From: a virus
Virus record (IMG/VR): IMGVR_UViG_3300023180_000126
Span: 1 to 42,487 of that record
DNA: 42,487 nt
Reading direction: 5' to 3' (one strand)
In this document: positions 2,773 through 39,729 of the stretch, in pieces
Layout: each line of letters opens with the position of its first letter
Numbering within the stretch: position 1 is the stretch's first letter
Notes under the pieces: generated by a model
What the model was told of the DNA's origin: nothing
The model's input: only the letters and a program-made list of their open reading frames with translations
The model's database searches: none
Position numbers and translations under genes: made by a program

Positions 2773-2780
2773 TATTTATT
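2773..2780 (-). promoter_or_regulatory. Late-promoter-like octamer for gp14-gp15
   Basis: The minus strand reads AATAAATA, one base away from the T4 late consensus TATAAATA. It lies eight bases before the gp14 ATG and faces away from the gp13 octamer 15 bases away, forming a divergent late promoter pair. Confidence 0.6.
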
Positions 2781-2794
2781 GTATAGTTCAAAGC

Positions 2795-2802
2795 AATAAA
2801 TA
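2795..2802 (+). promoter_or_regulatory. Late-promoter-like octamer for gp13
   Basis: AATAAATA overlaps the first possible ATG of gp13 by one base and lies five bases before the second in-frame ATG (2808). The spacing seen at other late genes (5-8 bases) favours 2808 as the true start. Confidence 0.6.
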
Positions 2803-2807
2803 TGAGT

Positions 2808-3569
2808 ATGTCAGAACTTCAAACAGGCCAACAGGAAATATTTGATTATGTGAAGAACAACCTCGGTGAGGGCATGATCGATGTGGAGTTGGACCCAAAA
2901 CACTACCAGACGGCGCTGGAAAGGGCCACCAACAGATACAGACAGCGATCATCCAACGCTGTGGAAGAATCATACGCATTCCTAGAGTTAAAAAAGAACC
3001 AGAACGTGTATGTGCTTCCAGATGAAGTGATCAACGTTAGGAATCTTAACAGGAGGACCGTGGGATCAAGGACCGAAGGTGGTGAGGGTGGTACACTCTT
3101 TGAACCATTCAACCTGGCCTACACCAACACCTATCTACTCAGGGCGGGTGCCACAGGTGGATTGGCTACTTACTACGCTTTCGCTTCTTACCAAGAATTA
3201 GTTGGAAAGATGTTTGGCAGTTTCATACAGTTCCATTTCGACGTGGCAACAAAGAGACTTACAATCACACAGAGACCTAGGGCCGACAACGAGACCGTGT
3301 TGATGCACACCGACAATTACAGACCGGACATCACACTGTTCAAGGACATCTATGCCAAACCATGGATCAGAGACTACACCTTGGCAGTGTGTAAGGTCAT
3401 GCTGGGCGAGGCCAGAGGCAAGTTCAACACCATAGCGGGACCACAGGGCGGAACCACGCTGAACGGTGACGCACTCAAGAACGAAGGCAATGCAGAGATG
3501 GAAAGACTTGACCAAGAGATAGGCAACTTTCAAGAAGGTGGTACACCACACAGTTTTGTTATTGGTTAA
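2808..3569 (+). CDS. 13: Neck protein gp13-like
   Basis: Partner of gp14 in the head-tail connector. The protein (253 residues from ATG 2808; 255 from ATG 2802) opens with a helix (QQEIFDYVKNNLGEGMIDVEL), followed by ALERATNRYRQRSSNAVEES and a strand-rich middle ending at RDYTLAVCKVMLGEARGKF. These segments fit the gp13 family of marine T4-like phages; T4 gp13 is about 309 residues. I prefer ATG 2808 because the late-promoter octamer runs into ATG 2802. It is divergent from gp14/gp15, whereas in T4 genes 13, 14 and 15 are colinear. Confidence 0.82.
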   Translation: MSELQTGQQEIFDYVKNNLGEGMIDVELDPKHYQTALERATNRYRQRSSNAVEESYAFLELKKNQNVYVLPDEVINVRNLNRRTVGSRTEGGEGGTLFEPFNLAYTNTYLLRAGATGGLATYYAFASYQELVGKMFGSFIQFHFDVATKRLTITQRPRADNETVLMHTDNYRPDITLFKDIYAKPWIRDYTLAVCKVMLGEARGKFNTIAGPQGGTTLNGDALKNEGNAEMERLDQEIGNFQEGGTPHSFVIG

Positions 3570-3585
3570 TTCCAACCAAATCACA

Positions 3586-3593
3586 TCTAAATA
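3586..3593 (+). promoter_or_regulatory. Late-promoter-like octamer before the 60-residue gene
   Basis: TCTAAATA lies six bases (ACACTG) before the ATG at 3600, the same arrangement as at most late genes in this window. Confidence 0.5.
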
Positions 3594-3599
3594 ACACTG

Positions 3600-3782
3600 A
3601 TGGGAAAAACCAATTACAAGAATTACTCTGACCTCACACTAGATGAACTGGAAGCATTGGTGCAAGATCTCGAGAATATGAGCATCATGGCACTCAAACA
3701 GCACAAGAAAGGTCTTAGAATTTCCATCTTGAAATCCGTCAAAGAAGCAATCAAAGAGATTGAAAAACGTCTCAAAAGATAG
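3600..3782 (+). CDS. Small basic helical protein, unknown function
   Basis: Sixty residues, not recognised. The sequence is almost entirely helix-forming: residues ~10-25 (SDLTLDELEALVQDLE) are acidic and ~32-60 are lysine-rich (KQHKKGLRISILKSVKEAI), so it could form a helical hairpin or short coiled coil. It lies between gp13 and the dNMP kinase and has its own late-promoter-like octamer six bases upstream, which supports expression. The promoter of the next gene is embedded in its last ~25 bases. A regulatory or virion-accessory role is possible but not shown. Confidence 0.6.
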   Translation: MGKTNYKNYSDLTLDELEALVQDLENMSIMALKQHKKGLRISILKSVKEAIKEIEKRLKR

Positions 3783-3788
3783 TATAAT
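3760..3788 (+). promoter_or_regulatory. Host-type promoter for the dNMP kinase, -10 fused to start codon
   Basis: TTGAAA (3760-3765), a 17-base spacer and a perfect TATAAT (3783-3788) lie inside the end of the preceding gene. The ATG at 3795 follows six bases after the -10 box, so transcription should begin at about the A of ATG. No Shine-Dalgarno is visible. Confidence 0.65.
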
Positions 3789-3794
3789 AAACCT

Positions 3795-4400
3795 ATGCTG
3801 ATAGGTGTAGTAGGATTAATAGGTTCTGGTAAAGACACTGTCTCGAAAAGACTAGAAGAGAAACACGGATTCCGTAGGGATTCATTCGCCAAGAGTTTGA
3901 AGGATGCTGTGAGTGTCATGTTCAACTGGGATCGCGAAATGCTGGAAGGCAACGGCGATGAGAGTAGGAAGTGGAGAGAACAACCAGACGAATTCTGGAG
4001 CAAACGTTTTGGCAAACACGTGACACCACGTTGGGTGCTACAGCACTTCGGCACAGAAGTGATGAGACAACACATGCATGACGCCATATGGATAGACAGT
4101 TGCCTAGCCAGATATAATGGTCAACCTACTGTGATATCAGATACTAGATTCCAAAACGAGCTGAAGACTATTAAAGAACAAGGCGGATCACTCATACTTG
4201 TCAAACGTGGACAACTTCCGACACGAGAAGAAATGCGAAAAAAAGGTGCCCACAAATCAGAATGGGATTGGATGGGTTGGAATTTCGATCACGTTATTGA
4301 CAACAACGGAACAAAAGAAGAGTTATATCAAAAAGTCGACAACCTAATCATCAGCAACGAGATCGCCCACACGCCAACCAAGTCTACGCACACTGCTTAG
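3795..4400 (+). CDS. 1: Deoxynucleoside monophosphate kinase (T4 gp1-like)
   Basis: Converts dNMPs to dNDPs for phage DNA synthesis, using ATP. The P-loop is GLIGSGKDT (7-15), in the GSGKD form typical of dNMP kinases of this family rather than GKST. RWVLQHFGTEVMR (79-91) and VISDTRFQNE (113-122, the Walker B-like strand and substrate-binding arginine) match gp1-type kinases. Length 201 residues versus 241 in T4 gp1. The C-terminal ~57 bases overlap the convergent HNH-like gene on the other strand. Its host-type promoter within a late module suggests it is also expressed early, which fits a nucleotide-metabolism enzyme. Confidence 0.85.
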   Translation: MLIGVVGLIGSGKDTVSKRLEEKHGFRRDSFAKSLKDAVSVMFNWDREMLEGNGDESRKWREQPDEFWSKRFGKHVTPRWVLQHFGTEVMRQHMHDAIWIDSCLARYNGQPTVISDTRFQNELKTIKEQGGSLILVKRGQLPTREEMRKKGAHKSEWDWMGWNFDHVIDNNGTKEELYQKVDNLIISNEIAHTPTKSTHTA

Positions 4401-4703
4401 ACGTTGACAGTTAGCACACACCGTCTTTAAATTATTTGAGGAAGTATTTCTCATATTTCCGTCCACAAATAACACATCCAATTGATTGATCTGTTGTGCT
4501 TTGAATCCACACAATTCACATTTTTTTTGTTTTTTGTATCCTGATCTTTGTAGTGGAGTCACACCCCCAACACTCTTACCTGCTTTTTTCCTATTACAGG
4601 TATCACAAAGACTACGCCAATACACCCTGCCATATCGCTGATAGGCATAAGCCCTGGGTTTGCTTTTGCACTGCTTACAAATGGGTCTGTCGTTGTATCG
4701 CAT
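4344..4703 (-). CDS. HNH-endonuclease-like zinc protein with missing catalytic histidines
   Basis: A 119-residue protein with four CxxC pairs (C9/C12, C33/C36, C62/C65, C96/C99). The C-terminal half has the layout of a phage HNH endonuclease: CELCGF, then LDVLFVDGN, NNLKTVC and CANCQ. In active members the VDGN stretch reads HHxDGN or similar and the end reads NCH. Here those positions are L-F and Q, so the general-base and metal-binding histidines appear absent. It may be a decayed homing nuclease or a repurposed DNA-binding zinc protein. The open frame continues upstream to 4901, but a late octamer (4709-4716) five bases before ATG 4703 and homologue-like text starting MRYNDRP support this start. 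Its end overlaps the dNMP kinase. Confidence 0.7.
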   Translation of the reverse strand: MRYNDRPICKQCKSKPRAYAYQRYGRVYWRSLCDTCNRKKAGKSVGGVTPLQRSGYKKQKKCELCGFKAQQINQLDVLFVDGNMRNTSSNNLKTVCANCQRLSSVRRLGWRVGDLVADD

Positions 4704-4708
4704 AAGCA

Positions 4709-4716
4709 TATTTACG
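4709..4716 (-). promoter_or_regulatory. Late-promoter-like octamer before the HNH-like gene
   Basis: Minus-strand CGTAAATA lies five bases before the ATG at 4703 and overlaps an alternative in-frame ATG at 4709. Confidence 0.5.
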
Positions 4717-4772: not shown

Positions 4773-4780
4773 AATAAATA
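4773..4780 (+). promoter_or_regulatory. Late promoter of the tail sheath gene
   Basis: AATAAATA lies 39 bases before the gp18 ATG. Unlike most late genes here, this leaves room for a real leader, and a strong Shine-Dalgarno (AAGGAGA, 4804-4810) stands nine bases before the start. This is the classical T4 late-gene arrangement. Confidence 0.65.
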
Positions 4781-4819
4781 ACTCTAGTATACACGTAACT
4801 TGCAAGGAGAATACGACAA

Positions 4820-7800
4820 ATGGCTTTAACATCACCAGGAGTAGAGGTTTCAGTAATAAACGAGAGTTTCTACGTACCATCAGATGCGGGTACAACACCA
4901 CTATTCATAGTAGCATCATCACAGGACAAGACCAACGGAGCGGGAGACGGAACTGCGTCAGGCACAACAACGGCCAACGCCAACACTGCGTACTTGATCT
5001 CGTCACAGAGAGAATTGACAGAAACTTTTGGAGATCCAAAATTCTACACAGACACAGCAGGAAATTCACTACACGGTTATGAATTGAATGAATGGGGTCT
5101 ACAAGCGGCATACTCATTTTTGGGTGTGGCCAACAGAGCATATGTTTTAAGAGCCAACGTTGACACTTCACAATTAATTGGAAGTGCTTCGGCTCCAACC
5201 GCAACACCAACAGATGGCACATACTGGTTTGACCTTGCATCTACCAGTTACGGTATCTTTCAGTGGAGCCAAACTGATCAGAAATTCACAACAATCACAC
5301 CAACTGTTATCACATCAACAAATGATATTGACCTGAGTTCACCTTTAAGAAAGCCAAAATCTAATATTGGAAGTATAGGTAATTACGCTATCAACACCAC
5401 ACACGTTTCAAATAGAATCTGGTACAAAAATTCAAGCAACACCTGGGTACAAGTGGGATCAAGCGCATGGCACTTATCACATCCTGTCATCACAGTTGCT
5501 TCAGGTACAACAGTGACAAGCGGTCACTCCATGTACGTGAACAGTGTTCAAGTTTCAGTAAGCGGCACAGCACTTTCAGATGTGGCTACAGCATTCACTA
5601 ATGCCAATGTTCCTGGAGTATCAGCAAGTGTCAACGCTACCACAGGCAATCTAGAAATCTTCCACAATGGTTTAGGTTTCAGTGATTCTTCTGTGGAAAG
5701 CGACAACACAATCAAGTTTCAAGCAGGTACAGGCACACTACTAAGTGACTTGGGGATCACAGCACAGACTTACAACGGTGTTAAATTCCTGCAGGCCAAA
5801 CACACCAACAGACCAACATGGAAGACAGCAGACGAAGACAGACCCAACGGTTCGGTTTGGTTCAAGACAACCAATGCCAATGCGGGCGCCAACATCGTTG
5901 CCAAACTATACAGCTCGTCAAGTGCTAGTTTTGGAACAGTGTCTGCTCCATTGTATGCCACAAACCATTCAGCGATCTACAACCTAGATCCATCGAACGG
6001 TGGTACAGGATTGACTGCTGGCACACTTTACACACAGTACAACATCACTGAACAATCAGTGGACGGACAGTCAGACATCACACCAAACGTGGGCGACTTC
6101 CAACTGTTCAGATACGAAGGTGGACAGACTATAATAAGTTCTAAGACCACACATCCAACGTTCACGCACAACGAGACATTCACAGTGAGAGAATCCGTGA
6201 AGACCCAAGAAGCGTTGGCGGCGGCCAAGACAGTTACAATCCAATCAAGTGATGGATCAACACTGGCTGACAAGGAAGACTTCGTGACGGCATTCACAGC
6301 CGCAGGTTTCACGAACCTAGAAGCGTCTATAATCACAGCAGGTGAGTACACAGGCGCCATACAGATCAAACACAAACTGGGTGGTGACTTCAGGATGAAC
6401 AACACATCAGGAACTCCACTAGACGACGCAGGATTCGGTACCAGTGACGCACACAGTTACGGTGGATACACTGCTAACAGCACAACACTGGTTGATAACT
6501 TGTACGTGGCACCATTAGGTGACTCGGAAGACTCGACAGTGGGTAACGAAGTTATCGCTACAAACTGGAAGAGATTGAGCTACACTGCTTCAACAAGTGC
6601 TCCTACCAATGAGCCAACAGATGGCACACTTTGGTATGACACCAAGATTGACGAAGCAGACATCATGGTACACAACGGAACAACTTGGGTAGGATACCTA
6701 AATCAATACGCTACCACAGATCCAAATGGTCCACAGTTCAGTGCCACAGCACCGACTACACAGTCAGACGGAACAGCACTGGTCACTAATGACTTATGGA
6801 TTGACACAAGCGATCTTGAGAACTATCCAAAACTCTACAGATACAACACATCTGCCACACTAAGTTCAAGCAACACAGCAAACCAAGTGGTTGTCACCAC
6901 GTCGGGTGCGGCCTGGGAATTAATCGACAAGGCAGATCAGACCACAGAAGACGGAGTTGTCTTCGCAGATGCTAGATGGCATACTTCAACAGACAGGAAT
7001 GCCAACAACAGCACACAGGCGGGCACTGCTTCAACAATCAAGAATCTTTTAAGTGACAACTTCATAGATCCAGATGCTCCAGACCCAGCACTTTACCCAC
7101 AGGGTATCATGCTGTGGAACACTAGGAGAAGTGGTTATAACGTGAAAGAATACAGAAACAGTTACATAACAACGACTGCTTATCCTGGATCGGGTTCATC
7201 AGGATTGGGTAACATCAGATACAACAACGAATCAGTTAGTGGTTACTACCCAGACAGATGGGTCACCAAGTCAGGCAACAACGCGGACGGTTCTGGCACT
7301 TTCGGAAGGAAAGCACAGAGAAAAGTCATCGTGGCACAACTGAAATCTGAGATAGACACGAACCAAGCGATCAGAGAGGACCAAAGGGGTTACAACGTGA
7401 TTGCTTGTCCTGGATATCCAGAACTGATACAGAACATGATCAACCTAAACACCGACAGGAACAACACGGCATTCGTTGTTGGTGACACACCAATGAGATT
7501 GGCCGGCACAGCAACGGCAATCACGAACTGGGCAAACAACACGGCGGCCGCCACAGACAACGGCGAGGACGGTCTTGTTAGTTCAAGTGATTACTTAGGA
7601 GTGTTCTATCCTTCAGGATCAACCACAGACAACACGGGTAAAACCATTGTTGTTCCACCAAGTCACATGATGATGAGGACACTGGCGAACAACGACAACA
7701 TCGCTTTCCCATGGTTCGCTCCAGCAGGAACAAGACGTGGAGTTGTTGACAACGCCACATCAGTAGGTTACATCAACGCCACATCAGGCGAATTCCAAAT

Positions 7801-8251
7801 AATATCTGTTACGGAGTCAGTGAGAGACTCGATGCACAACGTGAAAGTTAATCCGATCACATTCTTCTCAGGAGCGGGCATCGTGAACTTTGGTAACTTG
7901 ACCAAGACATCGGCAAGTTCAGCAATGGACAGGATCAACGTTTCAAGATTGGCAGTGTATCTGAGAACACAACTGGATGCTATCGCTAAACCGTTCATCT
8001 TTGAACCAAACGATGAGTTGACAAGGAATGAGATCAAACAAGCAATCGAGTCATTCTTGCTAGAGCTTGTTGGTCAGAGAGCGTTATACGACTTCCTAGT
8101 AGTCTGTGATGACACCAACAACACACCTACCAGGATCGACAGGAATGAACTGTACGTGGACATCGCGATCGAACCAGTGAAATCGGTCGAGTTCATCTAC
8201 ATACCGTTAAGAATCAAAAACACAGGAGAAATTGCAAAGTTAGGGAACTAA
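4820..8251 (+). CDS. 18: Tail sheath protein gp18-like, greatly enlarged
   Basis: Contractile sheath subunit. The N-terminus MALTSPGVEVSVINES and the C-terminal part (from ~833: KVIVAQLKSEIDTNQAIRED, later YVDIAIEPVKSVEFIYIPLR) are clear gp18 landmarks; the ends form the conserved inner sheath core that contacts the tube. At 1143 residues it is nearly twice T4 gp18 (659). The excess lies between ~120 and ~830 and holds repeated short modules of the form TDGTxWxD ... W/YxN: about residues 125-160, 328-375, 590-628 and 643-710. Such surface-exposed insertions probably decorate the outside of the sheath. Strong SD and its own late promoter indicate very high expression. Followed directly by gp19. 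Confidence 0.92.
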   Translation: MALTSPGVEVSVINESFYVPSDAGTTPLFIVASSQDKTNGAGDGTASGTTTANANTAYLISSQRELTETFGDPKFYTDTAGNSLHGYELNEWGLQAAYSFLGVANRAYVLRANVDTSQLIGSASAPTATPTDGTYWFDLASTSYGIFQWSQTDQKFTTITPTVITSTNDIDLSSPLRKPKSNIGSIGNYAINTTHVSNRIWYKNSSNTWVQVGSSAWHLSHPVITVASGTTVTSGHSMYVNSVQVSVSGTALSDVATAFTNANVPGVSASVNATTGNLEIFHNGLGFSDSSVESDNTIKFQAGTGTLLSDLGITAQTYNGVKFLQAKHTNRPTWKTADEDRPNGSVWFKTTNANAGANIVAKLYSSSSASFGTVSAPLYATNHSAIYNLDPSNGGTGLTAGTLYTQYNITEQSVDGQSDITPNVGDFQLFRYEGGQTIISSKTTHPTFTHNETFTVRESVKTQEALAAAKTVTIQSSDGSTLADKEDFVTAFTAAGFTNLEASIITAGEYTGAIQIKHKLGGDFRMNNTSGTPLDDAGFGTSDAHSYGGYTANSTTLVDNLYVAPLGDSEDSTVGNEVIATNWKRLSYTASTSAPTNEPTDGTLWYDTKIDEADIMVHNGTTWVGYLNQYATTDPNGPQFSATAPTTQSDGTALVTNDLWIDTSDLENYPKLYRYNTSATLSSSNTANQVVVTTSGAAWELIDKADQTTEDGVVFADARWHTSTDRNANNSTQAGTASTIKNLLSDNFIDPDAPDPALYPQGIMLWNTRRSGYNVKEYRNSYITTTAYPGSGSSGLGNIRYNNESVSGYYPDRWVTKSGNNADGSGTFGRKAQRKVIVAQLKSEIDTNQAIREDQRGYNVIACPGYPELIQNMINLNTDRNNTAFVVGDTPMRLAGTATAITNWANNTAAATDNGEDGLVSSSDYLGVFYPSGSTTDNTGKTIVVPPSHMMMRTLANNDNIAFPWFAPAGTRRGVVDNATSVGYINATSGEFQIISVTESVRDSMHNVKVNPITFFSGAGIVNFGNLTKTSASSAMDRINVSRLAVYLRTQLDAIAKPFIFEPNDELTRNEIKQAIESFLLELVGQRALYDFLVVCDDTNNTPTRIDRNELYVDIAIEPVKSVEFIYIPLRIKNTGEIAKLGN

Positions 8252-8256: not shown

Positions 8257-8264
8257 AATAAATA
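8257..8264 (+). promoter_or_regulatory. Late-promoter-like octamer overlapping the gp19 Shine-Dalgarno
   Basis: AATAAATA ends on the first base of AGGAGA (8264-8269), which lies five bases before the gp19 ATG. A transcript starting from this octamer would begin inside or after the Shine-Dalgarno, so the SD can only serve read-through mRNA from the gp18 promoter. Confidence 0.5.
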
Positions 8265-8274
8265 GGAGAAACAG

Positions 8275-8923: not shown

Positions 8924-8949
8924 AAAGCGTCTTTATAGGCGCTTTTTTT
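8924..8949 (+). terminator. Rho-independent terminator after gp19
   Basis: An 8-bp stem (AAAGCGTC with GGCGCTTT, one G-U pair) closes a TTTATA loop and runs directly into seven T residues. It ends the sheath-tube transcription unit. This is the only clear intrinsic terminator I see in the window. Confidence 0.9.
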
Positions 8950-8954: not shown

Positions 8955-8962
8955 CATAAATA
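8955..8962 (+). promoter_or_regulatory. Late-promoter-like octamer before the second tube-fold gene
   Basis: CATAAATA lies five bases (CCCAT) before the ATG at 8968 and six bases after the terminator T-tract, restarting late transcription. Confidence 0.6.
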
Positions 8963-10733: not shown

Positions 10734-11173
10734 TGTTACCGAGATTCGCCAGGGGCAAATTCTCTCCCAAGAACGGAGAAAAATATGTGGGCACCAAGAC
10801 GCCCACATACAGATCCAGTTGGGAACACGCGTTCATGAGGTTGTGTGACGAACACCCCAACGTGTACCAATGGGCATCTGAATCAATAAAGATTCCTTAC
10901 CGACATCCATTCACGGGCAAGTACACAGTGTATGTGCCAGACTTCTTCATAGTGTACCAAGACAAGGAAGGTCGCAAACACGCCGAGATGGTTGAGGTCA
11001 AGCCCATGAGTCAGACCACCATGGAGTCCGCGGGACGTAGTCAGGCCAAGAAGAAACAGGTAATCATAAACATGGCCAAGTGGGAGGCCGCAAGTGCCTA
11101 CGCCAAGCAGAGGAGGATCAAGTTCAGGGTGGTGTCAGAAGAGCAGTTGTTCCACAATGGCAAACGTAAGTAA
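10733..11173 (+). CDS. 4: Head completion nuclease-fold protein, gp4-like
   Basis: T4 gp4 (gp50) is needed to finish the DNA-filled head before tail joining. The 146-residue protein contains RSSWE (27-31), VPDFFIVY (68-75) and EMVEVKP (85-91). Together E31, D70 and E88-x-K90 make a PD-(D/E)xK nuclease core of the TnsA-like type, as in gp4. Length matches T4 gp4 (150). The basic C-terminus (RSQAKKKQ, KQRRIKFR) suits DNA contact. Its stop codon lies within the late octamer of the terminase small subunit gene. Confidence 0.8.
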   Translation: MLPRFARGKFSPKNGEKYVGTKTPTYRSSWEHAFMRLCDEHPNVYQWASESIKIPYRHPFTGKYTVYVPDFFIVYQDKEGRKHAEMVEVKPMSQTTMESAGRSQAKKKQVIINMAKWEAASAYAKQRRIKFRVVSEEQLFHNGKRK

Positions 11174-11176
11174 ATA
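11169..11176 (+). promoter_or_regulatory. Late-promoter-like octamer before gp16
   Basis: AGTAAATA overlaps the gp4 stop codon and lies five bases (CGACG) before the ATG at 11182. Confidence 0.5.
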
Positions 11177-11181: not shown

Positions 11182-11706
11182 ATGACAAAGAAATTAGAGG
11201 ACATACTTAATTTACCAAACGTCAAAGAGGCCTTCAAGGAAGTGGATAAGAAGGAGCAGGCCAGGGCCAACAGAGATCAGACCAAGGAAGTGCTGAAGAA
11301 CGTTGATCCTCAGACCGCAAAGAACCTACAGAAGAGCTACGCGGAGTTTGACAAGATAGCGGCCGCACTGCCACAGGTGAAGGGTCTGGGGGAACTGAGT
11401 GACCTCGAACTGGACAAACTGGCCGTAGAAGCAGAAGAGAGCTACAAGAACCTGATGGACCTAGGCATGAATGTGGATTCACGTTATTCAGGACGTATTT
11501 TTGAGGTTGCCAGCAACTTCCTGCGCAACGCCATAGACGCCAAGGGTAGCAAGATAGACAAGAAGCTCAAGATGGTGGAACTACAGCTCAAGAAGATGAA
11601 ACTGGACAAAGATGGCAACAAAGACGGTGGTCAAATAGAGGAAAGCGATGGATTCGTAATATCCGATCGTAACGAATTGATGAAGAAACTATTAAAAAAA
11701 GACTAA
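11182..11706 (+). CDS. 16: Terminase small subunit gp16-like
   Basis: Binds DNA and stimulates the packaging ATPase gp17. The 174-residue protein is almost all helix. It has a charged N-terminal arm, a central region with LSDLELDKLAVEAEESYKNL (74-93), then SRYSGRIFEVASNFLRNAID and IDKKLKMVELQLKKMKLDK, a coiled-coil hairpin matching the oligomerisation region of gp16 in T4-like phages (T4: 164 residues). Position supports it: in this phage gp17 follows after two structural genes, so the 16-17 pair is split, unlike T4. Confidence 0.75.
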   Translation: MTKKLEDILNLPNVKEAFKEVDKKEQARANRDQTKEVLKNVDPQTAKNLQKSYAEFDKIAAALPQVKGLGELSDLELDKLAVEAEESYKNLMDLGMNVDSRYSGRIFEVASNFLRNAIDAKGSKIDKKLKMVELQLKKMKLDKDGNKDGGQIEESDGFVISDRNELMKKLLKKD

Positions 11707-11709
11707 ATA
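11702..11709 (+). promoter_or_regulatory. Late-promoter-like octamer before the gene at 11716
   Basis: ACTAAATA contains the gp16 stop codon (TAA) and lies six bases (TTGCAT) before the ATG at 11716. Confidence 0.5.
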
Positions 11710-11715: not shown

Positions 11716-12336
11716 ATGAGCACGTTTAAGGACTATCTAGCAGAATCAGTAAAGTCGTATGACTACAAAATCAAGGTAGCAGGCGCTATTGACAAGGATT
11801 TCGCCAACAAGATGGAAACAGCACTTGCTAAATTTGAAGTGTCTAAAATGTCAGCAGGCAAGAAAACACCTATCATGACCATGCCGTTAGATTTCCCCAT
11901 GTTGAGCAACGAGGAAGTCACAATCTTTGACGTCACAACAAACTATCCTGTGTCAGTGAGGGAATTAAAAGAGTACCTTTCAGACAGGATGAGGTTACCA
12001 GCCACACACATCGTTGTGAGGAAACCAGGTGAGCCCACAGAGGAATACCAAGACCAGATGCAGATCAAATCAGAGTACGCTAACAAACTGTATGACATCG
12101 AGTACAAGGATGCTCCTAAAGTGAACGCAGAAGACTTCCACTCAACCAAGGCCAACATGAGCCTACTGAAAGAATTATTAAAAGACAGAGAAGCCCACGC
12201 ACTCAATATGGAAGTGGGCAAAGACAACAAAACACAAGAACTACAGAGCAACGAAGAAGAATCCAAACCATCACCGATACAGGCCGCACACAAAGGTCCT
12301 GTAAAAGGTAACCCACACCCAGCAAAAGGAAAATAA
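11716..12336 (+). CDS. Unknown protein, probable virion or assembly component
   Basis: A 206-residue protein, not recognised. It begins MSTFKDYLAESVKSYDY, similar in style to short 'FKxFLxE' N-termini of T4-like structural and core proteins. The first ~110 residues look like a small alpha/beta domain (YKIKVAGAIDKDFANKMETAL, then VTIFDVTTNYPVSVRELKEYL, then THIVVRKPGEP). The C-terminal ~60 residues are disordered and low in hydrophobics (DNKTQELQSNEEESKPSP, ending HPAKGK). A TTG at 11710 is in frame but lies against the late octamer; ATG 11716 is preferred. Between the terminase subunits, hence probably late. Confidence 0.55.
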   Translation: MSTFKDYLAESVKSYDYKIKVAGAIDKDFANKMETALAKFEVSKMSAGKKTPIMTMPLDFPMLSNEEVTIFDVTTNYPVSVRELKEYLSDRMRLPATHIVVRKPGEPTEEYQDQMQIKSEYANKLYDIEYKDAPKVNAEDFHSTKANMSLLKELLKDREAHALNMEVGKDNKTQELQSNEEESKPSPIQAAHKGPVKGNPHPAKGK

Positions 12337-13185: not shown

Positions 13186-13193
13186 GTTAAATA
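13186..13193 (+). promoter_or_regulatory. Late-promoter-like octamer before gp17
   Basis: GTTAAATA lies seven bases (CTACACT) before the terminase large subunit ATG, inside a 39-base intergenic gap. Confidence 0.55.
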
Positions 13194-14793: not shown

Positions 14794-14794
14794 C

Positions 14795-15334
14795 GTGAGA
14801 AAAAATCTATATTACAAGTCAGGTGAGGAAGGTAATGTTGACTTCAATGAACGATGGAATGATCTCTCAGGAATAATCGATTTCAACAAAGATCACACCG
14901 TGCTGGATGTTGGCTGTGCCGAAGGACTGATAGCCATAGAACTATCAAAGAGATTCAAAAAAGTTTTTGCGTTTGACATAGAGCCTTACAGAATAACGAA
15001 GGCACGTGAGAATGCTGTGGGAATACCGAACATAGAATTCTCAACGGAAAACTACATATCCTATCAGTATCAAGATTACGATCAAGTGTTCTGCCTGGGT
15101 GTGTATCACAAGATAAAGAACAACCAGCGACAAGGGGCACTGGACGATATGTTCAAGAAGTGCTCTTCAACATTGTATCTACGTGTGCCCATAGTCGGCA
15201 AGGATGTGCCAAAAACCGTGGGTGTAAGCGACGCAGAGGTGCTTAAAATTGCTGGTAATAATGATTTTGTACTAACACACCGTACCGTACAGAGACCACA
15301 ACATGGAACCATATTCAAGTTCGCAAGGCACTAA
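14795..15334 (+). CDS. Class I SAM-dependent methyltransferase
   Basis: A 179-residue protein. VLDVGCAEG near 33-41 is the glycine-rich AdoMet-binding motif I, VFAFDIEPYRI is motif II with the acidic ribose ligand, and DYDQVFCLGVYHKI corresponds to motif IV-V. No target-recognition domain is visible, so the substrate (protein, small molecule, sugar or nucleic acid) is open; a DPPY-type DNA adenine motif is absent. I use the GTG at 14795, one base after the gp17 stop, since the only upstream start is a TTG inside gp17 coding and the text from MRKNLYYKSGEEG onward looks like a proper N-terminus. The gene is coupled to gp17, an unusual place for a methyltransferase. Confidence 0.78.
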   Translation: MRKNLYYKSGEEGNVDFNERWNDLSGIIDFNKDHTVLDVGCAEGLIAIELSKRFKKVFAFDIEPYRITKARENAVGIPNIEFSTENYISYQYQDYDQVFCLGVYHKIKNNQRQGALDDMFKKCSSTLYLRVPIVGKDVPKTVGVSDAEVLKIAGNNDFVLTHRTVQRPQHGTIFKFARH

Positions 15335-15337
15335 ATA
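15330..15337 (+). promoter_or_regulatory. Late-promoter-like octamer before the 761-residue protein
   Basis: ACTAAATA includes the methyltransferase stop codon and lies seven bases (GCACTAT) before the ATG at 15345. Confidence 0.55.
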
Positions 15338-17655: not shown

Positions 17656-17684
17656 TTTACTTTACCAATTGAACAATATATAAT
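17656..17684 (+). promoter_or_regulatory. Host-type promoter for the radical SAM gene
   Basis: TTTACT (17656-17661, four of six matches), 17-base spacer, perfect TATAAT (17679-17684). The ATG at 17691 follows after six bases (ATCTGT), predicting a leaderless mRNA. The 60-base gap is very AT-rich. Confidence 0.55.
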
Positions 17685-19655: not shown

Positions 19656-19716
19656 TTTAGGCAAACTAACAAACATAGGCACACAAGGAGGCTTACATTA
19701 TGGCATCATTAGCTGA
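19642..19716 (+). CDS. Possible 24-residue leader peptide overlapping the gp32 start
   Basis: An ATG in the loop of the leader inverted repeat opens a 24-codon frame beginning MSNIHLGKLTNIGT and ending with TGA at 19714-19716, 17 bases inside gp32 in another frame. It would be translated through the gp32 Shine-Dalgarno, so ribosomes on it could control gp32 initiation. There is no SD of its own, and the frame is short enough to occur by chance. Confidence 0.2.
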   Translation: MSNIHLGKLTNIGTQGGLHYGIIS

Positions 19717-28169: not shown

Positions 28170-28185
28170 GGGAATATTATATAAT
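28157..28185 (+). promoter_or_regulatory. Host-type promoter for the six-gene glycan operon
   Basis: TAGACA (28157-28162, five of six), 17-base spacer, perfect TATAAT (28180-28185). The ATG at 28194 follows eight bases later with no Shine-Dalgarno, so a leaderless start is predicted. It lies over the end of the GT61 gene. Confidence 0.65.
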
Positions 28186-29982: not shown

Positions 29983-30755
29983 TACACAGAAGAGTCAATG
30001 TACTACAAAACCAGTATGATACTATACCAAATCTTATCCTAAGTTTTCCACGTTGTGGTCGTACTTGGATGAAGCACTTATTTGGTCATTATATCGCCAA
30101 GAAGTACAATGTAGAATTTAGTAAATGGGTGGATAGGCCAAGATCGGGAATACCTAGAATATTGTTCAGACATGACTGGATGAGTACAACAGGGCATATA
30201 CCATGGCAAGAATATTTTCAGATACAAGATAAATGTAGATTCATATTCAGTAAAGAAATGACAAAACAAAACATAATATATCTTTTCAGAGATCCCCTCG
30301 ATGTGTTGTTCAGTTATTGGCCATACCTACAGAGTATACCTTACAAGAACTTTACTCCACCGGAACATACCGATATAATCGATTTCGCACACAACAAACA
30401 ATGGGGTTTTGATATTGTAATTAATTTTATGAACGCACAGTTGGATCATTATGAACAACATCAAAATAAAAAATTAAAAGTGAGGTATGAAGATCTCAAA
30501 AAACAAGATTCGGAATGGCAAAAATTAATAGAATTCATATTTGGTCATTACGACTATCAAGCGTATGAACATGCCAAGTCCCAGACAACATTCTCAAAAA
30601 TGCAAGAGAAAAACAACAAAGATCTTCCCGATAATCTGAAGTTCTATAGAAAAGGGGGATCAAATTACATAAAAGAATTGTCAGCGGAACAACAGGACAT
30701 TTTATTAAACTGGCCCGGCTACAAGGATTTAAATAGACGCATACATGAAGATTAA
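29979..30755 (+). CDS. PAPS-dependent sulfotransferase
   Basis: A 258-residue enzyme of the cytosolic sulfotransferase type. SFPRCGRTWMK (22-32) is the 5'-phosphosulfate-binding loop (usual YPKSGTTW), IYLFRDPLDVLFSYW (100-114) is the 3'-phosphate-binding segment with R104 and S112, KVRYEDL (167-173) is the conserved strand, and YRKGGSNYIKEL (223-234) matches the C-terminal RKGxxGDWK loop. The loop lysine of the PSB motif is replaced (R-C-G-R), though R may substitute. It sits inside a glycosyltransferase operon, so the likely acceptor is a sugar hydroxyl, giving a sulfated glycan; PAPS would come from the host. AT-rich compared with the core genes. Confidence 0.88.
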   Translation: MIHRRVNVLQNQYDTIPNLILSFPRCGRTWMKHLFGHYIAKKYNVEFSKWVDRPRSGIPRILFRHDWMSTTGHIPWQEYFQIQDKCRFIFSKEMTKQNIIYLFRDPLDVLFSYWPYLQSIPYKNFTPPEHTDIIDFAHNKQWGFDIVINFMNAQLDHYEQHQNKKLKVRYEDLKKQDSEWQKLIEFIFGHYDYQAYEHAKSQTTFSKMQEKNNKDLPDNLKFYRKGGSNYIKELSAEQQDILLNWPGYKDLNRRIHED

Positions 30756-32516: not shown

Positions 32517-33280
32517 AAGTAATAAACATAGGACAGAGGAATGTCATAGAACCTATAGAATGGAAACCATACACCGGCGAAACTATTATTGTAAAGACAA
32601 TACTGCGACAAGGCAAGAAGATACAAGAGACTGCCTACTACGAAGACAAAGTTAAAGCAGTGCCACGTGGTAATGCCTATTGTATAGGAAATGGACCTTC
32701 CAGAAAAGGATTTGATCTGAACAAACTGAAGTCAACAGGGCAAACTTATGGCTGTAATGCTTTGTATAGAGATTTCATACCAGACTTCATATTTTCGGTC
32801 GATACAAAGATTACCGTGAAGATGTGCGAAGACGAAGTGGGGCTAAAGACTGTTCACTATGCACCATCATTGGAAGTGAATAGGAAACAGAACAAGGGCA
32901 TGTTACATCTGATTCCCTATAATCCTCACTGGATTTCAGGTAACGCCGCATTCTGGACAGCGGGAATACATGGACACAAAAATATATATCTGCTAGGGTA
33001 TGACTTCCGAGAGTACGGCGCGGGGCAGTTGAATAACATCTACCAAGACACCGAGTGTTATGGTGAGAGGAATAACGATGCTATCTTTGAGGGGTGGTTA
33101 AAAACTTTCAGGGACATGTTGAAGATGAGACCATATGTGAATTACACATTGGTGCATGATAATCCCCCAAGTTTCCTACATAATCTACAGACAGGAACGG
33201 ACATGGGCAACAGTAGAATAATCAGTTATAAGGAATTTAACGATACAGTCTTAAACCAGCACTCTCAAACTTCTGTCTAA
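32513..33280 (+). CDS. GT42/DUF115-like protein of phage glycan clusters
   Basis: A 255-residue protein from ATG 32513 (ATGA overlap). AYCIGNGPSRKGFDLNKL (55-72) is the nucleotide-binding start found in sialyltransferases of family GT42 and in DUF115/Maf-like proteins; YGCNALYRDFIPDFIFSVD (79-97) follows in the same order as those families. WISGNAAFWTAGIHGHKNIYLLGYD is split over ~145-169, and the D in GYDF may bind the donor. Both sugar transfer and nucleotide-sugar handling are possible. Last gene of the plus-strand glycan operon; its 3' end overlaps the convergent SprT gene by 44 bases. Confidence 0.6.
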   Translation: MKVINIGQRNVIEPIEWKPYTGETIIVKTILRQGKKIQETAYYEDKVKAVPRGNAYCIGNGPSRKGFDLNKLKSTGQTYGCNALYRDFIPDFIFSVDTKITVKMCEDEVGLKTVHYAPSLEVNRKQNKGMLHLIPYNPHWISGNAAFWTAGIHGHKNIYLLGYDFREYGAGQLNNIYQDTECYGERNNDAIFEGWLKTFRDMLKMRPYVNYTLVHDNPPSFLHNLQTGTDMGNSRIISYKEFNDTVLNQHSQTSV

Positions 33281-33701
33281 AAGCATAGAAGTTTTTATTG
33301 TGATTAGAGAACGGATCTTTCAACACAGTCATCTGGTATAGGTGCACCATCTCGTGTGCTAAGGTCTCTATGAAATCTTTCCAGGTTGGAAACTTTTCGT
33401 GCAGTTGTATGTAGTAATCCACAGGTACGTGGTGTGGTATCTTGCGTTGATCAAACTTGCCCTTAGGTGTTTTCCTATTGTCCCAGTTGGCCACGCATCT
33501 GCCCCAATCTCCCACTAGGCGCTTCACTTCAATGTGAACCCTGCCCAGTCTAGAGCCAAATAGCATGACATTCAGTTTGGAAAACCAGTGTGCGGCTACC
33601 ATAGATGTAGGTCTATACCCTCGCACATTACCACTCATAGCAAGTTTATTTTCAAATTGTCTCTTGAGCTGTTTCTTTTTGCTGTGTGCCTTCTTTTCCA
33701 T
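33237..33701 (-). CDS. SprT-like zinc metalloprotease
   Basis: A 154-residue protein with the zinc-protease motif HEMVH (116-120) in LAHEMVHLYQ and a preceding helix KDFIETL. After it comes NKNFYAFRQKFESAG, typical of SprT-type domains (H-x-x-x-F-x-x-x). The N-terminus is lysine-rich (KKAHSKKKQLKRQ), suggesting DNA contact. SprT-like proteins cut proteins crosslinked to DNA, which would fit its place next to UvsW. A third zinc ligand could be the histidine in SNHNKNF. Start ATG 33701; an in-frame extension to 33719 overlaps the divergent promoter. Confidence 0.8.
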   Translation of the reverse strand: MEKKAHSKKKQLKRQFENKLAMSGNVRGYRPTSMVAAHWFSKLNVMLFGSRLGRVHIEVKRLVGDWGRCVANWDNRKTPKGKFDQRKIPHHVPVDYYIQLHEKFPTWKDFIETLAHEMVHLYQMTVLKDPFSNHNKNFYAFRQKFESAGLRLYR

Positions 33702-33703
33702 GG

Positions 33704-33731
33704 TTGACCTTATTACCAATTATGTTATAAT
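33704..33731 (+). promoter_or_regulatory. Host-type promoter for the 447-residue gene and uvsW
   Basis: TTGACC (33704-33709, five of six), 16-base spacer, perfect TATAAT (33726-33731). The ATG at 33756 follows after 24 bases, so this promoter leaves a short real leader, unlike most others here. No strong SD is present. Confidence 0.6.
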
Positions 33732-33755
33732 ATACTAATAATTATCTAAATTACC

Positions 33756-35099
33756 ATGGACAAAATACGCACAGATTTGCCAAAAACAATTAACGAAGCA
33801 CTTAAAATACTAGCATATAATGATTATTTCTGGCCAGATCATCGTACGGGTCACATCAACCCGCACCCCAAGGACAAGGAGACCGTGAGATCACTAGCGG
33901 AATCACAGTACGCATGGACAGAAAAACAGGCCAAACTGGCCTTGGTCATACTCAAGAGATACCTCACCAAGTTCCAAGCACATCAGATAGACATTAAGCC
34001 CTTACTGGACAATCCAGTGTATGAGGACGACTTTAGAGTAATAAGTTTTGACAAAAGCATTGAAAAATACACAGACGATGATGGTACGGAAAAGATAGAG
34101 TTAAAATTTCCTTACAACAAGAAGATAATACAACTAATACGTTGCCTCAAGGATAAAAGAGACCTCCCTGGTATGTACGCACAGTATGACGGTGAATCTA
34201 AGAAATGGACTATGTTACACACAGATGTCACAGCATACTATCTAACTCTTATCGCTGTAAGGTACGACTTCAAATTTATCACTCCCCAATTACTTGATGA
34301 TTACGACAAGATAAAAAAGGAAGTTGTAGGACATCGACAGCCATCTGCTAGGTTATCAGGAGAAGAGATAATACTAGATCATGCGCACGAATCTCTTAAA
34401 GAATACTGGAGAGATAATGTCAAAAACAAACCATTACTACAACAGGTCGACTCGTTGAAAAATTTTGGCATCACCACAAAGGGTATCGTTGTGCCTGCTA
34501 GATCAAAATTGGCTAGTCGCATCGCCCATCATCAATATCATAAACTCTGGATTAATTCGACCAATTTTACCAAGACCGAAGTTGTACAGGCACTAATCGA
34601 TCTGGATGCGTTTCCTTTGCTGATACCTTGTCATAGCGATGTACACGAGGAACAGGAGATACAGGAATTTTGGAGTTGGATGAAGACATTCGAGGAGCAC
34701 GGCATAGACATGTTGAAACAATGTTCGTGGGGGTTTGACCTTAAGGAACCTGTGTATAGAAAAGAAAGAAGGGGTTTCAGTCCTCGCACAAATGTGATAG
34801 ATGATAAAAAACCCAGAGAGTTCTTCGAGAACTTGTACGAACTTCATCAAATGAGCAAACAGTTCAAATTCATAGACGAAAATACCAAAATTATATTTGT
34901 TCGTAACAGAATACCACGTGCATTAATTAGGAGCAAGGTAAAACCACAGGCTTCATTAATAGCATTGGGTGGTGGTTATTACGCCACAGGCACGGACAAT
35001 CTCAAAAGACTGCTTGAAAATCTTCCAAAAAAGTTGTATTATAGTGATCACCAACCAAGTAGTTGGGATTGGCATGATCACGTGATAGAACAAATATAG
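33756..35099 (+). CDS. Unknown 447-residue protein paired with UvsW, possible inactive helicase-like partner
   Basis: Not recognised. Residues ~50-75 (WTEKQAKLALVILKRYL) form a charged helix. The stretch 113-160 reads KIELKFPYNKKIIQLIRCL, then YDGESKKWTML, close in style to the HARP-like recognition domain in front of SNF2-type helicases (F-x-Y-x-x-x-I ... YD-x-x-K-x-W). The C-terminal half contains TKIIFVRNRIPRALI and LIALGGGYYATG but has no Walker A, no DExx box and no arginine-finger motif. It could be a substrate-binding subunit or degenerate helicase paralogue that works with UvsW, whose ATG begins one base after this stop. All of this beyond the coupling is inference. Confidence 0.6.
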   Translation: MDKIRTDLPKTINEALKILAYNDYFWPDHRTGHINPHPKDKETVRSLAESQYAWTEKQAKLALVILKRYLTKFQAHQIDIKPLLDNPVYEDDFRVISFDKSIEKYTDDDGTEKIELKFPYNKKIIQLIRCLKDKRDLPGMYAQYDGESKKWTMLHTDVTAYYLTLIAVRYDFKFITPQLLDDYDKIKKEVVGHRQPSARLSGEEIILDHAHESLKEYWRDNVKNKPLLQQVDSLKNFGITTKGIVVPARSKLASRIAHHQYHKLWINSTNFTKTEVVQALIDLDAFPLLIPCHSDVHEEQEIQEFWSWMKTFEEHGIDMLKQCSWGFDLKEPVYRKERRGFSPRTNVIDDKKPREFFENLYELHQMSKQFKFIDENTKIIFVRNRIPRALIRSKVKPQASLIALGGGYYATGTDNLKRLLENLPKKLYYSDHQPSSWDWHDHVIEQI

Positions 35100-37707: not shown

Positions 37708-38374
37708 ATGCACATACTGTGGCAAGGAGTTCGCTAAGGAAAGAACCTTGCAGGTACACCTGTGTGAACCCAAACGCAGATATCTACAACGAGATGAGAA
37801 GTGGGTGGTCAACGCATTCATGGTGTTCCAGAGATTTTATCAGATACACCAACACAACTCCAAACCTAAGACATACGATGATTTTGTCAAGAGCGCATAC
37901 TACAATGCGTTCGTTAAGTTTGGCAGATACATCATGCATATCAACCCATTGTATCCAGACAAGTACATAGACTATGTGCTACGATCAAAGATCAAACTAG
38001 ACCACTGGGCTAGAGATGATCTATATGAGGAGTACCTGATAGAAACTTTGAAGTCAGAGCCGGTAGAATCGGCCTTGCAACGTAGCATAGCGACAATGAT
38101 GGACTGGGCTAACGAACAGAACGCACAGTGGAGTGACTACTTCAGATTGGTCAACACCAATCGAGCAGTGCAACACATACAACAAGGTGCGATAAGTCCA
38201 TGGCTACTGTTAGGTTGCAGTGCAGGAAAGAAAATGTTAAAATCATTTAACGACGAGCAACTACAGATGATAGAGAGATTCATAAACCCAAGTTTCTGGC
38301 CAAGCAAGATCAAGAGCTATCCAGCAGACCTATTGTTGGTTCAGGAGACGGCTAGGGAGGCCAAGATTGTCTAA
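37691..38374 (+). CDS. Zinc-finger protein of unknown function in the replication cluster
   Basis: A 227-residue protein. CTYCGKEFAKERTLQVHLC gives a C2HC finger (C7, C10, H23, C25) with the classic C2H2-like spacing and hydrophobic core (F14, L20). After the basic PKRR comes a long helical domain (WVVNAFMVFQRFYQIHQHNS, YNAFVKFGRYIMHINPLYPD, AISPWLLLGCSAGKKML). Start ATG 37691 is 17 bases inside the gp62-like gene; a TTG three codons earlier is the alternative. Likely nucleic-acid binding. It is followed by the TTG-started small gene with a strong SD in its 3' end. Confidence 0.65.
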   Translation: MASTNKCTYCGKEFAKERTLQVHLCEPKRRYLQRDEKWVVNAFMVFQRFYQIHQHNSKPKTYDDFVKSAYYNAFVKFGRYIMHINPLYPDKYIDYVLRSKIKLDHWARDDLYEEYLIETLKSEPVESALQRSIATMMDWANEQNAQWSDYFRLVNTNRAVQHIQQGAISPWLLLGCSAGKKMLKSFNDEQLQMIERFINPSFWPSKIKSYPADLLLVQETAREAKIV

Positions 38375-38600
38375 GATTGATCTAGAGATAGCGGACAATT
38401 TGGATTTCGAAGACGGGGACTGTGCGGTGGTAATCAAAGAAGACGGATCAATAGGAAGGGTGATTATGCCAGACATCAACAGGAATGTTCTTGATTCAGA
38501 AGGATACAGGAAACTGTTAGACGTACTAGAAGTTTTACAGCCGGGATCACGTGACAAGATGATACAACATGCTGAAAAAGGCAAAGGGAGTATGCACTAA
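38367..38600 (+). CDS. Small acidic protein with TTG start
   Basis: A 77-residue protein. The only start that covers the frame is TTG 38367, supported by an excellent Shine-Dalgarno AGGGAGG (38354-38360) six bases upstream, one of the few in this region. It overlaps the zinc-finger gene end. CAVVIKEDGSIGRVIMPDI is a strand pair and SEGYRKLLDVLEVLQP a helix. Its stop shares a base with the next ATG, coupling it to the polymerase-like gene. Function unknown; it may be a chaperone or partner of that protein. Confidence 0.65.
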   Translation: MSKIDLEIADNLDFEDGDCAVVIKEDGSIGRVIMPDINRNVLDSEGYRKLLDVLEVLQPGSRDKMIQHAEKGKGSMH

Positions 38601-39190
38601 TGCCTGATGTAGATATAGACTTCTTCGACAGGGACGGGGTGCTGAAACTTTTCAAACACACACCGGCATCGATGATCAAAGATGGCAAGACCGAAAAACA
38701 CAAGACGGGAGTTTACTTCCATGCTGTTCCTGAACACCCAGTGACTGGAAACTCATCGTTAGATTACAAGAAGGCCGAGGACAGAGGATATTTCAAGATA
38801 GACATGTTGAACGTGAACATATACAAAGAAGTCAAGTCAGAGCAGGAACTGGTAGAACTAATGATACAGGAGCCAGATTGGGACATGCTGAAGGATCCAA
38901 AGACCGTGGAGAACCTTTTCCACCTAAATGGACACTTCAATATAGTGTCAAAGTTAGAGCCAAAGAATATCGAACAACTGGCCGCAGTGTTGGCCATAAT
39001 ACGTCCCGCCAAGAGGCAGTTGATGTACAAAGACTGGCAGGACATAATGAAGGAAGTGTGGACTAGACCCACAGACGGCTCATACTTCTTCAAGAAGTCA
39101 CACGCTATAGCCTATGCACAGGCCATAGTGGTACAGATGAATCTCATTACGAGAGCTAAATATAGTTTTGATGCTACATCAAAAACCTAA
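38600..39190 (+). CDS. Miniature DNA polymerase III alpha (C-family) palm-like protein
   Basis: A 196-residue protein that can be aligned by eye to scattered blocks of the ~1160-residue DnaE. MPDVDIDF (1-8) matches the DnaE motif MPDFDVDF, with D5 and D7 as the metal-binding pair. EKHKTGVYFHA (32-42) matches the GKHAGGVVIA block. RGYFKIDMLNV (62-72) matches the GLVKFDFLGL block, keeping the third aspartate (D68). VENLFHLNG...LEPKNIEQLAAVLAIIRPAK (103-138) matches the fingers segment before LFRPGP, and FFKKSHAIAYA (163-173) matches GFNKSHSAAYA. The PHP, most fingers, beta-binding and OB domains are absent. It may be a tiny polymerase, nucleotidyltransferase or decoy. Coupled to the TTG-started gene. 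Confidence 0.7.
   Translation: MPDVDIDFFDRDGVLKLFKHTPASMIKDGKTEKHKTGVYFHAVPEHPVTGNSSLDYKKAEDRGYFKIDMLNVNIYKEVKSEQELVELMIQEPDWDMLKDPKTVENLFHLNGHFNIVSKLEPKNIEQLAAVLAIIRPAKRQLMYKDWQDIMKEVWTRPTDGSYFFKKSHAIAYAQAIVVQMNLITRAKYSFDATSKT
39155..39162 (+). promoter_or_regulatory. Late-promoter-like octamer before the 51-residue gene
   Basis: GCTAAATA lies eight bases (TAGTTTTG) before the ATG at 39171, inside the end of the polymerase-like gene. Confidence 0.5.
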
Positions 39191-39326
39191 AAAAAAGATA
39201 CCCAAACATCCTAGTAAAAAACATCGCAGTCCAACTCGCTCCGAGCTCGGATCATACCAAGCCAACAATCCATTGACCAAGTACGTGGAAAGAGTCAATG
39301 GAATAAACTGTACTGAGAAGAACTAG
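39171..39326 (+). CDS. Small basic protein (51 residues)
   Basis: Starts MLHQKPKKKIPKHPSKKHR, strongly basic, and ends SYQANNPLTKYVERVNG plus a short tail with one cysteine. It is short, but a late octamer eight bases before the ATG matches the pattern of known late genes, and the NPLTKYVERVNGI end is reminiscent of a small conserved protein in marine T4-like phages. The basic N-terminus suggests DNA or RNA binding. Overlaps the polymerase-like gene by 20 bases and the convergent gene by four. Confidence 0.6.
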   Translation: MLHQKPKKKIPKHPSKKHRSPTRSELGSYQANNPLTKYVERVNGINCTEKN

Positions 39327-39697
39327 ACTGGTTTGCGGACCAATTGGATTGTCCTACGCTTGACGCGTTTCTTTGAGATATCAGAAAGTCTCACAGTTGG
39401 TCCATGCACTATCTCAACATCCTTAGAGTTCAAAGTGACTAGTGTGGTCCTGAAATACTTGAACTCACCTTTGAGGAATATGTTAATGGGCAGTTTACGA
39501 TTGGACTCGTGCCACCAGGTCTCGCCACATTTAAGGTATCTCATCTTGTCCTGTGGTAGCATCAATCTACCGTAATCATAGAAACTGATCACGTTGGTGT
39601 CCTCGTTCTGTATTATGCCCACGTACTCCAGATCGCCCTTTCGGATCAGGCTCAGGAAAGGGAATTTATCCCTTAATGTGTTAAAAATTTCGTTCAT
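39323..39697 (-). CDS. Conserved small protein of marine T4-like phages, unknown function
   Basis: A 124-residue protein. NVISFYDYGRLMLPQDK, ETWWHESNRKLPINIFLKGEF (split over 59-79) and KDVEIVHGPTVRLSDISKKR are segments I remember from a core cyanophage protein with no assigned role. The C-terminus is very basic (KKRVKRRTIQLVRKPV). It is the only minus-strand gene between uvsW and gp41. The SPOT of basic residues and conservation fit RNA or DNA binding; not proven. Confidence 0.65.
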   Translation of the reverse strand: MNEIFNTLRDKFPFLSLIRKGDLEYVGIIQNEDTNVISFYDYGRLMLPQDKMRYLKCGETWWHESNRKLPINIFLKGEFKYFRTTLVTLNSKDVEIVHGPTVRLSDISKKRVKRRTIQLVRKPV

Positions 39698-39705
39698 TCT
39701 ATATC

Positions 39706-39723
39706 TATAAATACTGTTAAATA
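39706..39723 (+). promoter_or_regulatory. Tandem late promoters, including the perfect T4 consensus TATAAATA
   Basis: TATAAATA (39706-39713) is identical to the T4 late consensus and is the best match in the window. A second octamer, GTTAAATA (39716-39723), lies six bases (TGTACT) before the ATG at 39730. The first would give a leader of about ten bases, the second a leaderless mRNA. Confidence 0.7.
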
Positions 39724-39729
39724 TGTACT

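Follow-up and report, generated by a model that had tools for sequence, protein, structure and literature searches.

A large group of marine bacterial viruses, distant relatives of T4, seems to start many of its late messenger RNAs (mRNAs) exactly at the first letter of the gene, and to keep an ordinary leader for the structural proteins made in the largest amounts. The case is made here from a 42,487-base IMG/VR virus record (IMGVR_UViG_3300023180_000126), a linear fragment taken over its full length and hereafter named the window, which, judging from its genes, is a piece of an uncultured T4-like phage, kin to the jumbo phages PA5oct and Paride. Predicted T4-type late promoters, with the core TAAATA, lie so near the start codon that a late mRNA begun there is likely to be leaderless, or to carry about three extra bases at most; these mRNAs very probably start at the AUG or 1-3 bases before it. 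In the mechanism we propose, a gp55-like sigma factor on the host RNA polymerase would bind TAAATA, and transcription would begin at the sixth base beyond it; with a gap (the number of bases from the end of TAAATA to the ATG) of 5, this base is the A of AUG. Gaps of 6-8 may yield leaders of 1-3 bases, and ribosomes would initiate on the 5'-terminal AUG.

The position of the motif carries the signal. TAAATA is not over-represented in the window (22 copies, 22.62 expected) and, copy number being at chance level, abundance was rejected as a signal; position alone is enriched. An ATG stands at gap 5-8 after 12 of the 22 copies, against a mean of 1.89 and a maximum of 7 in 500 dinucleotide shuffles. 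Eleven of these 12 ATGs open a reading frame (ORF) of at least 60 codons, against a mean of 0.078 and a maximum of 2 in as many shuffles. Among 35 hexamers built from the letters of TAAATA or TATAAT, TAAATA ranked first before ATGs (11/22 copies; mean of the others, 5.3%). The full octamer was also tried as the motif and rejected: TATAAATA occurs once in the window, and NNTAAATA was for this reason taken as the proper core. One of the 12 ATGs counted by script, at 15735, is an in-frame internal ATG and no gene start; an open-frame filter flags it together with 4703(-), leaving 10 sites. Shuffles underestimate the background of coding DNA (in T4, 4 sites were observed for 0.35 expected, and 1/4 was non-internal), and we therefore relied on the hexamer permutations and on annotated starts for comparing phages.

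An earlier note on this DNA had listed 12 starts preceded by the octamer, and all are present at the spacing it gave; its proposed check, octamer frequency before starts relative to shuffled sequence, came out far above the shuffles, as the counts above show. It had also described the gaps as AT-rich and often holding the previous stop codon. The region is indeed A/T-rich, but the stop codon sits within the octamer and not in the gap: the TAA of TAAATA is the stop codon of the upstream gene at 11171, 11704 and 15332.

The sites are as follows, on the plus strand unless marked (-). Cores at 2773..2778(-) and 2797..2802 stand 8 bases before ATG 2764(-), of a virion structural gene (1598-2764), and 5 bases before ATG 2808, of a gene resembling the head-tail adaptor Ad2 (2808-3569; gap 5 in 5/8 rows from more distant or cultured relatives). 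Further cores lie at 3588..3593, 6 bases before ATG 3600 (a 60-residue gene); at 4709..4714(-), 5 bases before ATG 4703(-) of an HNH endonuclease-like gene (4344-4703), the frame of which is also open further upstream to a GTG at 4901; and at 8957..8962, 5 bases before ATG 8968 of a second tail-tube-like gene (8968-10356). Three cores include the upstream stop codon: 11171..11176, 5 bases before ATG 11182, the stop being that of the head-closure gene; 11704..11709, 6 bases before ATG 11716 (virion structural); and 15332..15337, 7 bases before ATG 15345 (virion structural, 15345-17630). The terminase large subunit gene (TerL, 13201-14793) has its core at 13188..13193, 7 bases before ATG 13201, and the virion structural gene 39730-40533 at 39718..39723, 6 bases before ATG 39730, with a second core, TATAAATA, upstream at 39706-39713. 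Two cases are weak: TAAATA at 30730..30735, 9 bases before ATG 30745, for which the fetched loci gave no relative, and at 39157..39162, 8 bases before ATG 39171, which opens a 51-codon ORF found in one locus only.

We then followed these sites in related contigs. Group A comprises 80 of 509 loci retained from a terminase scan of IMG/VR, all with a TerL at least 91% identical; group B comprises 80 loci from a second scan with the Paride terminase (at least 600 candidates); and G001 is a record of 138 kb, with 93% identity to the window in TerL. In group A plus two contigs from metagenome-assembled genomes (MAGs), 82 loci in all, 487 of the 728 TAAATA copies are followed, at gap 5-8, by an ATG that opens an ORF. 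Gene by gene, rows pool the window, group A and cultured controls as tblastn allowed. Before 8968 the gap is 5 in 58 of 60 loci and 8 in the other 2; it is 5 or 6 in 65/70 loci before 11182, 6 in 71/74 before 11716, and 6-8 in 20/20 before 3600, with an ATG in all of these loci (60/60, 70/70, 74/74 and 20/20). A Shine-Dalgarno (SD) pattern was seen in 0/60, 0/70, 2/74 and 0/20 of them, respectively. For TerL the gap is 7 in 78/85 rows (SD 0/85, ATG 79/85), and for 15345 it is 6 or 7 in 79/81 (SD pattern 1/81, ATG 79/81); the non-ATG rows of these two genes are one TTG and, for the remainder, non-start triplets where the start was extrapolated. The octamer of 15345 is retained even where the upstream sequence differs. 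From codon 2 onward, differences fall mostly on third positions (most weakly for the small gene 3600), so these ATGs do begin coding sequence. The 4703(-) arrangement recurs in G001 at 125119(-). In group B, 184 of 1100 TAAATA copies have gap 5-8, alongside a leadered class near 17-23. On a TerL tree of 103 rows, the clade of the window is leaderless in 15/15 rows and the cultured rows in 0/8, and the leaderless label changes 10 times, against 34.4 for shuffled labels; this is a quick tree, with long branches among the cultured rows.

Where transcription would start can be estimated from T4, for which a passage in PMC1524935 places TATAAATA at -13 to -6; the sixth base after TAAATA is then the start. 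Leadered octamers test this position without use of the ATG. Among them, a pyrimidine-purine step peaks at +6, with a frequency of 0.44 in 178 environmental octamers, 0.40 in 52 cultured ones and 0.50 in 14 of T4, most other positions lying at 0.1-0.3; the base at +6 is A in 0.53, 0.69 and 0.86 of them, respectively. Leaderless sites with gap 5 necessarily have the A of ATG at +6, and in 84% of 196 distinct sites a pyrimidine directly precedes this ATG, against 46% of 661 SD starts. The same comparison of leaderless with SD starts gave 16/21 against 21/70 in G001 (p = 0.0002), 11/12 against 20/42 in Pelagibacter phage HTVC008M (p = 0.006), 6/6 against 15/37 in Mosig EXVC030M (p = 0.009) and 3/3 against 21/40 in Melnitz (p = 0.16).

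Terminators add to this. Within the 60 bases upstream, 100 of 718 leaderless octamers have a hairpin followed by a T-run, against 53 of 1171 others, and the T-run often stops 2-7 bases before the octamer, which leaves no room for a leader at these sites. In the window, an intrinsic terminator at 8924..8949 (9-bp stem and seven T) ends 7 bases before the octamer of 8968; this hairpin and T-run are conserved in relatives.

As for the machinery, the TAAATA core (TATAAATA) of T4-type late promoters is present; several phages conserve its first base poorly. Of the 11 larger records of relatives, 4 encode a gp55-type sigma. That of G001 (326 residues) matches PHROG 12791 at E = 6.2e-82, the late sigmas of the PA5oct group at about 46%, and T4 gp55 (PDB 7d7c) at E = 5.8e-5. 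The gp45 proteins of T4 and HTVC008M gave no tblastn hit in G001.

A second set of genes keeps the SD. For the tail tube, an SD was found in 57/58 loci and a leaderless octamer in none, the gap being 10 in 44 loci and 14 in 9; in rows from group B and cultured phages, AGGA is present in 42/42. The tail sheath has an SD in 25/28 loci and a leaderless octamer in none, with AGGA in 17/24 rows of group B and cultured phages. Capsid genes have an SD in 71/71 loci and are leaderless in none, a count that omits 9 of 80 loci whose match did not begin at residue 1. The single-strand DNA-binding protein (SSB) gene has an SD in 65/65 rows and the gene at 12340-13161 in 62/71 loci. In the window, the SD sites lie at 4804..4809 for the sheath gene (4820-8251), which also has a leadered octamer (4775-4780), and, with no octamer, at 12326..12330 for gene 12340-13161 and at 19685..19691 for the SSB gene (19700-20683). 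Before the tail tube ATG 8275, TAAATA is followed directly by GGAGA (8259..8269, gap 10): if +1 is the sixth base, a transcript begun there is without the SD, which would be present on read-through RNA only. The late genes thus appear to follow a two-tier design, with terminase, neck, second tube protein and others leaderless, and major capsid, tail sheath and tail tube under SD. The split would follow likely copy number, and the two tiers may be a means of setting protein amounts.

Some sigma-70-like promoters share the geometry. These were sought as a -35-like hexamer (at most 2 mismatches), a spacer of 16-18 and a TATAAT-like -10. Counting those at gap 5-8 from an ATG that opens an ORF, the window has six and G001 has 12. 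In G001, 7 fall at gap 6, compared with roughly one per position; in T4, 0 of 190 sigma-70-like sites have this geometry. Examples in the window, all on the plus strand, are the -10 TATAAT at 3783..3788, 6 bases before ATG 3795 of the deoxynucleoside monophosphate (dNMP) kinase gene, which has TATAAT upstream in 14/14 rows shown (of 21); TTTACT-17-TATAAT at 17656..17684, 6 bases before ATG 17691; TATAAT at 28180..28185 (-35 TAGACA, spacer 17), 8 bases before ATG 28194; and TTGACA-17-TAAAAT at 40508..40536, 7 bases before ATG 40544 (primase). These sequences are suggestive of leaderless transcription here too, with looser motifs, some of which are likely to be chance hits.

Several points weigh against a promoter fused to the start codon. 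The exact octamer before 11182 was not present in 5/70 loci, and none was found within 40 bases before TerL in 37 of 86 group B or cultured rows. Many sites are orthologous, hence not independent, and some octamers overlap stop codons, a possible constraint on their sequence. The pyrimidine excess does not reach significance when the window is taken by itself (7/10 against 9/18, p = 0.27). At gaps 6 and 7 the initiator pattern equally permits a start two or three bases before the ATG, and initiator statistics for gap 8 were discarded, 74 of 88 such sites in group A being one kind of internal in-frame coding site. No gp55 gene was found among the window ORFs tested, the window being a fragment. 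The PHROG model of gp45 matched 0/11 records, but as this model matched nothing anywhere, this is no evidence of absence.

The octamers could also be late promoters in front of genes translated mainly from read-through mRNA of upstream promoters, the octamer transcript being minor or meant for the next gene. The genes are co-directional and tightly packed, and the SD of the tail tube, placed between octamer and ATG, is usable on read-through RNA only. However, such RNA would need to cross the intrinsic terminators that stop 2-7 bases before many octamers, and would still be without an SD before these genes; moreover, the divergent pair 2764(-)/2808 has no common upstream transcript and the initiator signature is aligned with the ATG, so that we consider this explanation improbable. 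It is more doubtful still that TAAATA is no promoter and acts in translation, as an A/U-rich unstructured initiation region, often with an upstream stop for re-initiation. The A/T-rich region and the stop codon inside three window octamers would fit, but A/T hexamers of the same letters are less strongly enriched, and the motif also precedes genes located behind terminators or distant from any stop. Relatives carry it 15-45 bases upstream, often ahead of an SD, and it is the T4 late consensus in phages where a late sigma is encoded.

Finally, TAAATA might be the -10 element of the host main sigma factor, in which case the promoters would not be late in the T4 sense and the mRNA would still be leaderless. 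This would agree with TATAAT and -35-like hexamers, at spacing 17, found at the same distance before other ATGs. Yet TAAATA differs from TATAAT, stands ahead of structural genes and corresponds to the late motif in cultured relatives that possess gp55, and the two classes precede different genes; of the explanations considered, this is the one to which we give the least credence. A T4-type late promoter with its start on or beside the ATG, and no SD, as the earlier note had supposed, is thus the reading that the sequences favour, supported by conserved spacing, initiator signature, adjacent terminators and a gp55-type sigma in a near relative. Its view that the design departs from T4 is borne out by the leadered controls, T4 included, where the motif is mostly 15-45 bases upstream. 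The idea of a coordinated design for late genes stands in part: it applies to many of them, but capsid, sheath and tube keep their SD and sigma-70-like promoters share the geometry.

Regarding the phage itself, a near-identity search with positions 1-25000 of the window returned no near-identical named phage. By terminase, SSB and gene order, the window groups with the jumbo phages PA5oct/Paride, Phosso, Atu_ph07, GAP32 and RaK2, its TerL being 55% identical to that of the PA5oct group. PHROG models recognise the head-tail adaptor, dNMP kinase, tail tube, head closure, terminase, SSB, UvsX, a UvsW-like helicase and primase, and the gene at 4820 is named tail sheath because it matches genes annotated as such in relatives. 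The four ORFs at 29979, 30745, 31644 and 33756 (region 29979-35099) have no PHROG match at E = 0.001. A methyltransferase-like gene (14711-15334) lies between TerL and 15345; many relatives carry a different sequence there and keep the octamer. Head-to-head octamers serve the divergent structural genes 2764(-) and 2808 from about 43 bases, likewise in G001 and group B. Inside gene 15345, TAAATA with an in-frame ATG 8 bases on (15721-15735) may be kept by constraint on the coding sequence, or may be a late promoter within the gene from which a shorter product is made.

As to the host, a TerL scan of GTDB contigs returned two short contigs, in MAGs named Betaproteobacteria TMED41 and Pelagibacter, which are possibly binning errors. 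In these two MAGs, TATAAT-N5-8-ATG occurs 121 and 148 times, against 81 and 99 for the reversed control (about 1.5-fold), a control that alters the start codon too. The suggestion of the earlier note, a host that translates leaderless mRNA well, was not established. No transfer RNA was found in G001.

T4 late transcription is a textbook system, in which late promoters lie ahead of leaders. T4 late promoters and leaderless mRNA are each known; their systematic fusion was not found in the open-licence literature searched. Leaderless mRNA in phages is in itself nothing new, since a passage in PMC5312081 describes phage transcripts as often lacking a leader. If the present reading is true, phage late expression can run on leaderless translation in a large environmental clade, start-codon and promoter annotation of these genomes would change, and a natural experiment, leaderless versus SD initiation inside one infection, would be at hand.

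Comparison with cultured phages used counts of TAAATA at gap 4-8 and at 15-45 in the fetched stretches. These were 12 and 4 for the window and 24 and 10 for G001, against 4 and 26 for T4, where 1 of the 4 close sites survives the open-frame filter. They were 0 and 10 for each of Phosso, Atu_ph07 and RaK2, 0 and 12 for GAP32, 0 and 7 for phiM12, 0 and 16 for Syn9, 3 and 22 for Paride, 1 and 12 for P-SSM4, 3 and 24 for Melnitz, and 1 and 5 for Vibrio 2.275. Leaderless starts are thus nearly absent from T4, Phosso, Atu_ph07, GAP32, RaK2 and phiM12, each of which has between 7 and 26 octamers 15-45 bases from the start. In Melnitz (3 sites, TAAATA ranking third among 35 hexamers) and P-SSM4 (1 site), the sites are too few to claim a leaderless pattern.

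The pattern does extend beyond the clade of the window, to HTVC008M and Mosig. For HTVC008M, 98.5 kb were covered, in two stretches overlapping by 500 bases. Of the 118 octamers there, 12 have an ATG 4-8 bases downstream, and 12/12 of these ATGs are annotated starts, among them those of head closure, tail tube cap, a baseplate wedge gene, Ad2, end protector and tape measure. Its capsid, sheath and tube have SD sites, and its portal and protease a leadered octamer with an SD-like sequence. Mosig has 6 non-internal ATGs with TAAATA 4-8 bases upstream, and an SD at capsid, sheath and tube. Ribosomal protein S21 is encoded by both HTVC008M (L188) and Mosig (L270), and peptide deformylase by Mosig; the S21 of HTVC008M had no match in G001. 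With HTVC008M, the leaderless reading becomes testable in a cultured phage. We tentatively suggest, at somewhat less than even confidence, that two distantly related marine T4-like lineages share a two-tier late programme in which the promoter-ATG distance decides, gene by gene, between leaderless and SD-led translation, virion stoichiometry being set at translation initiation (low-copy parts leaderless; capsid, sheath and tube under SD).

Like the window, then, HTVC008M and Mosig have TAAATA close before the ATG of several genes while capsid, sheath and tube keep the SD; unlike it, they belong to a different T4-like family, and among their octamers the leaderless ones are the smaller class (12, with 17 leadered, in HTVC008M). 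Because the family is different, leaderless late genes would either have arisen more than once or predate the leadered state. PA5oct/Paride, Phosso, Atu_ph07, GAP32 and RaK2, the nearest cultured relatives by TerL, SSB and gp55, have a gene order similar to that of the window, but their late promoters are leadered, with one annotated gap-5 gene in Paride (L085 position 16273), the ortholog of 39730. In leaderless promoters of the mycobacterial type, the -10 element lies a few bases before the ATG and transcription begins on the A of AUG; these rely on host sigma factors, whereas the main class in the window has a phage late-promoter motif. With T4 the window shares the TAAATA core before structural genes; relatives of the window encode a gp55-type sigma, and leadered environmental octamers, like those of T4, show the initiator step most often at the sixth base past the core. 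In T4, however, most octamers stand well ahead of the ATG (26 at 15-45 bases, 1 non-internal candidate at 4-8), whereas in the window the motif adjoins the ATG, without an SD.

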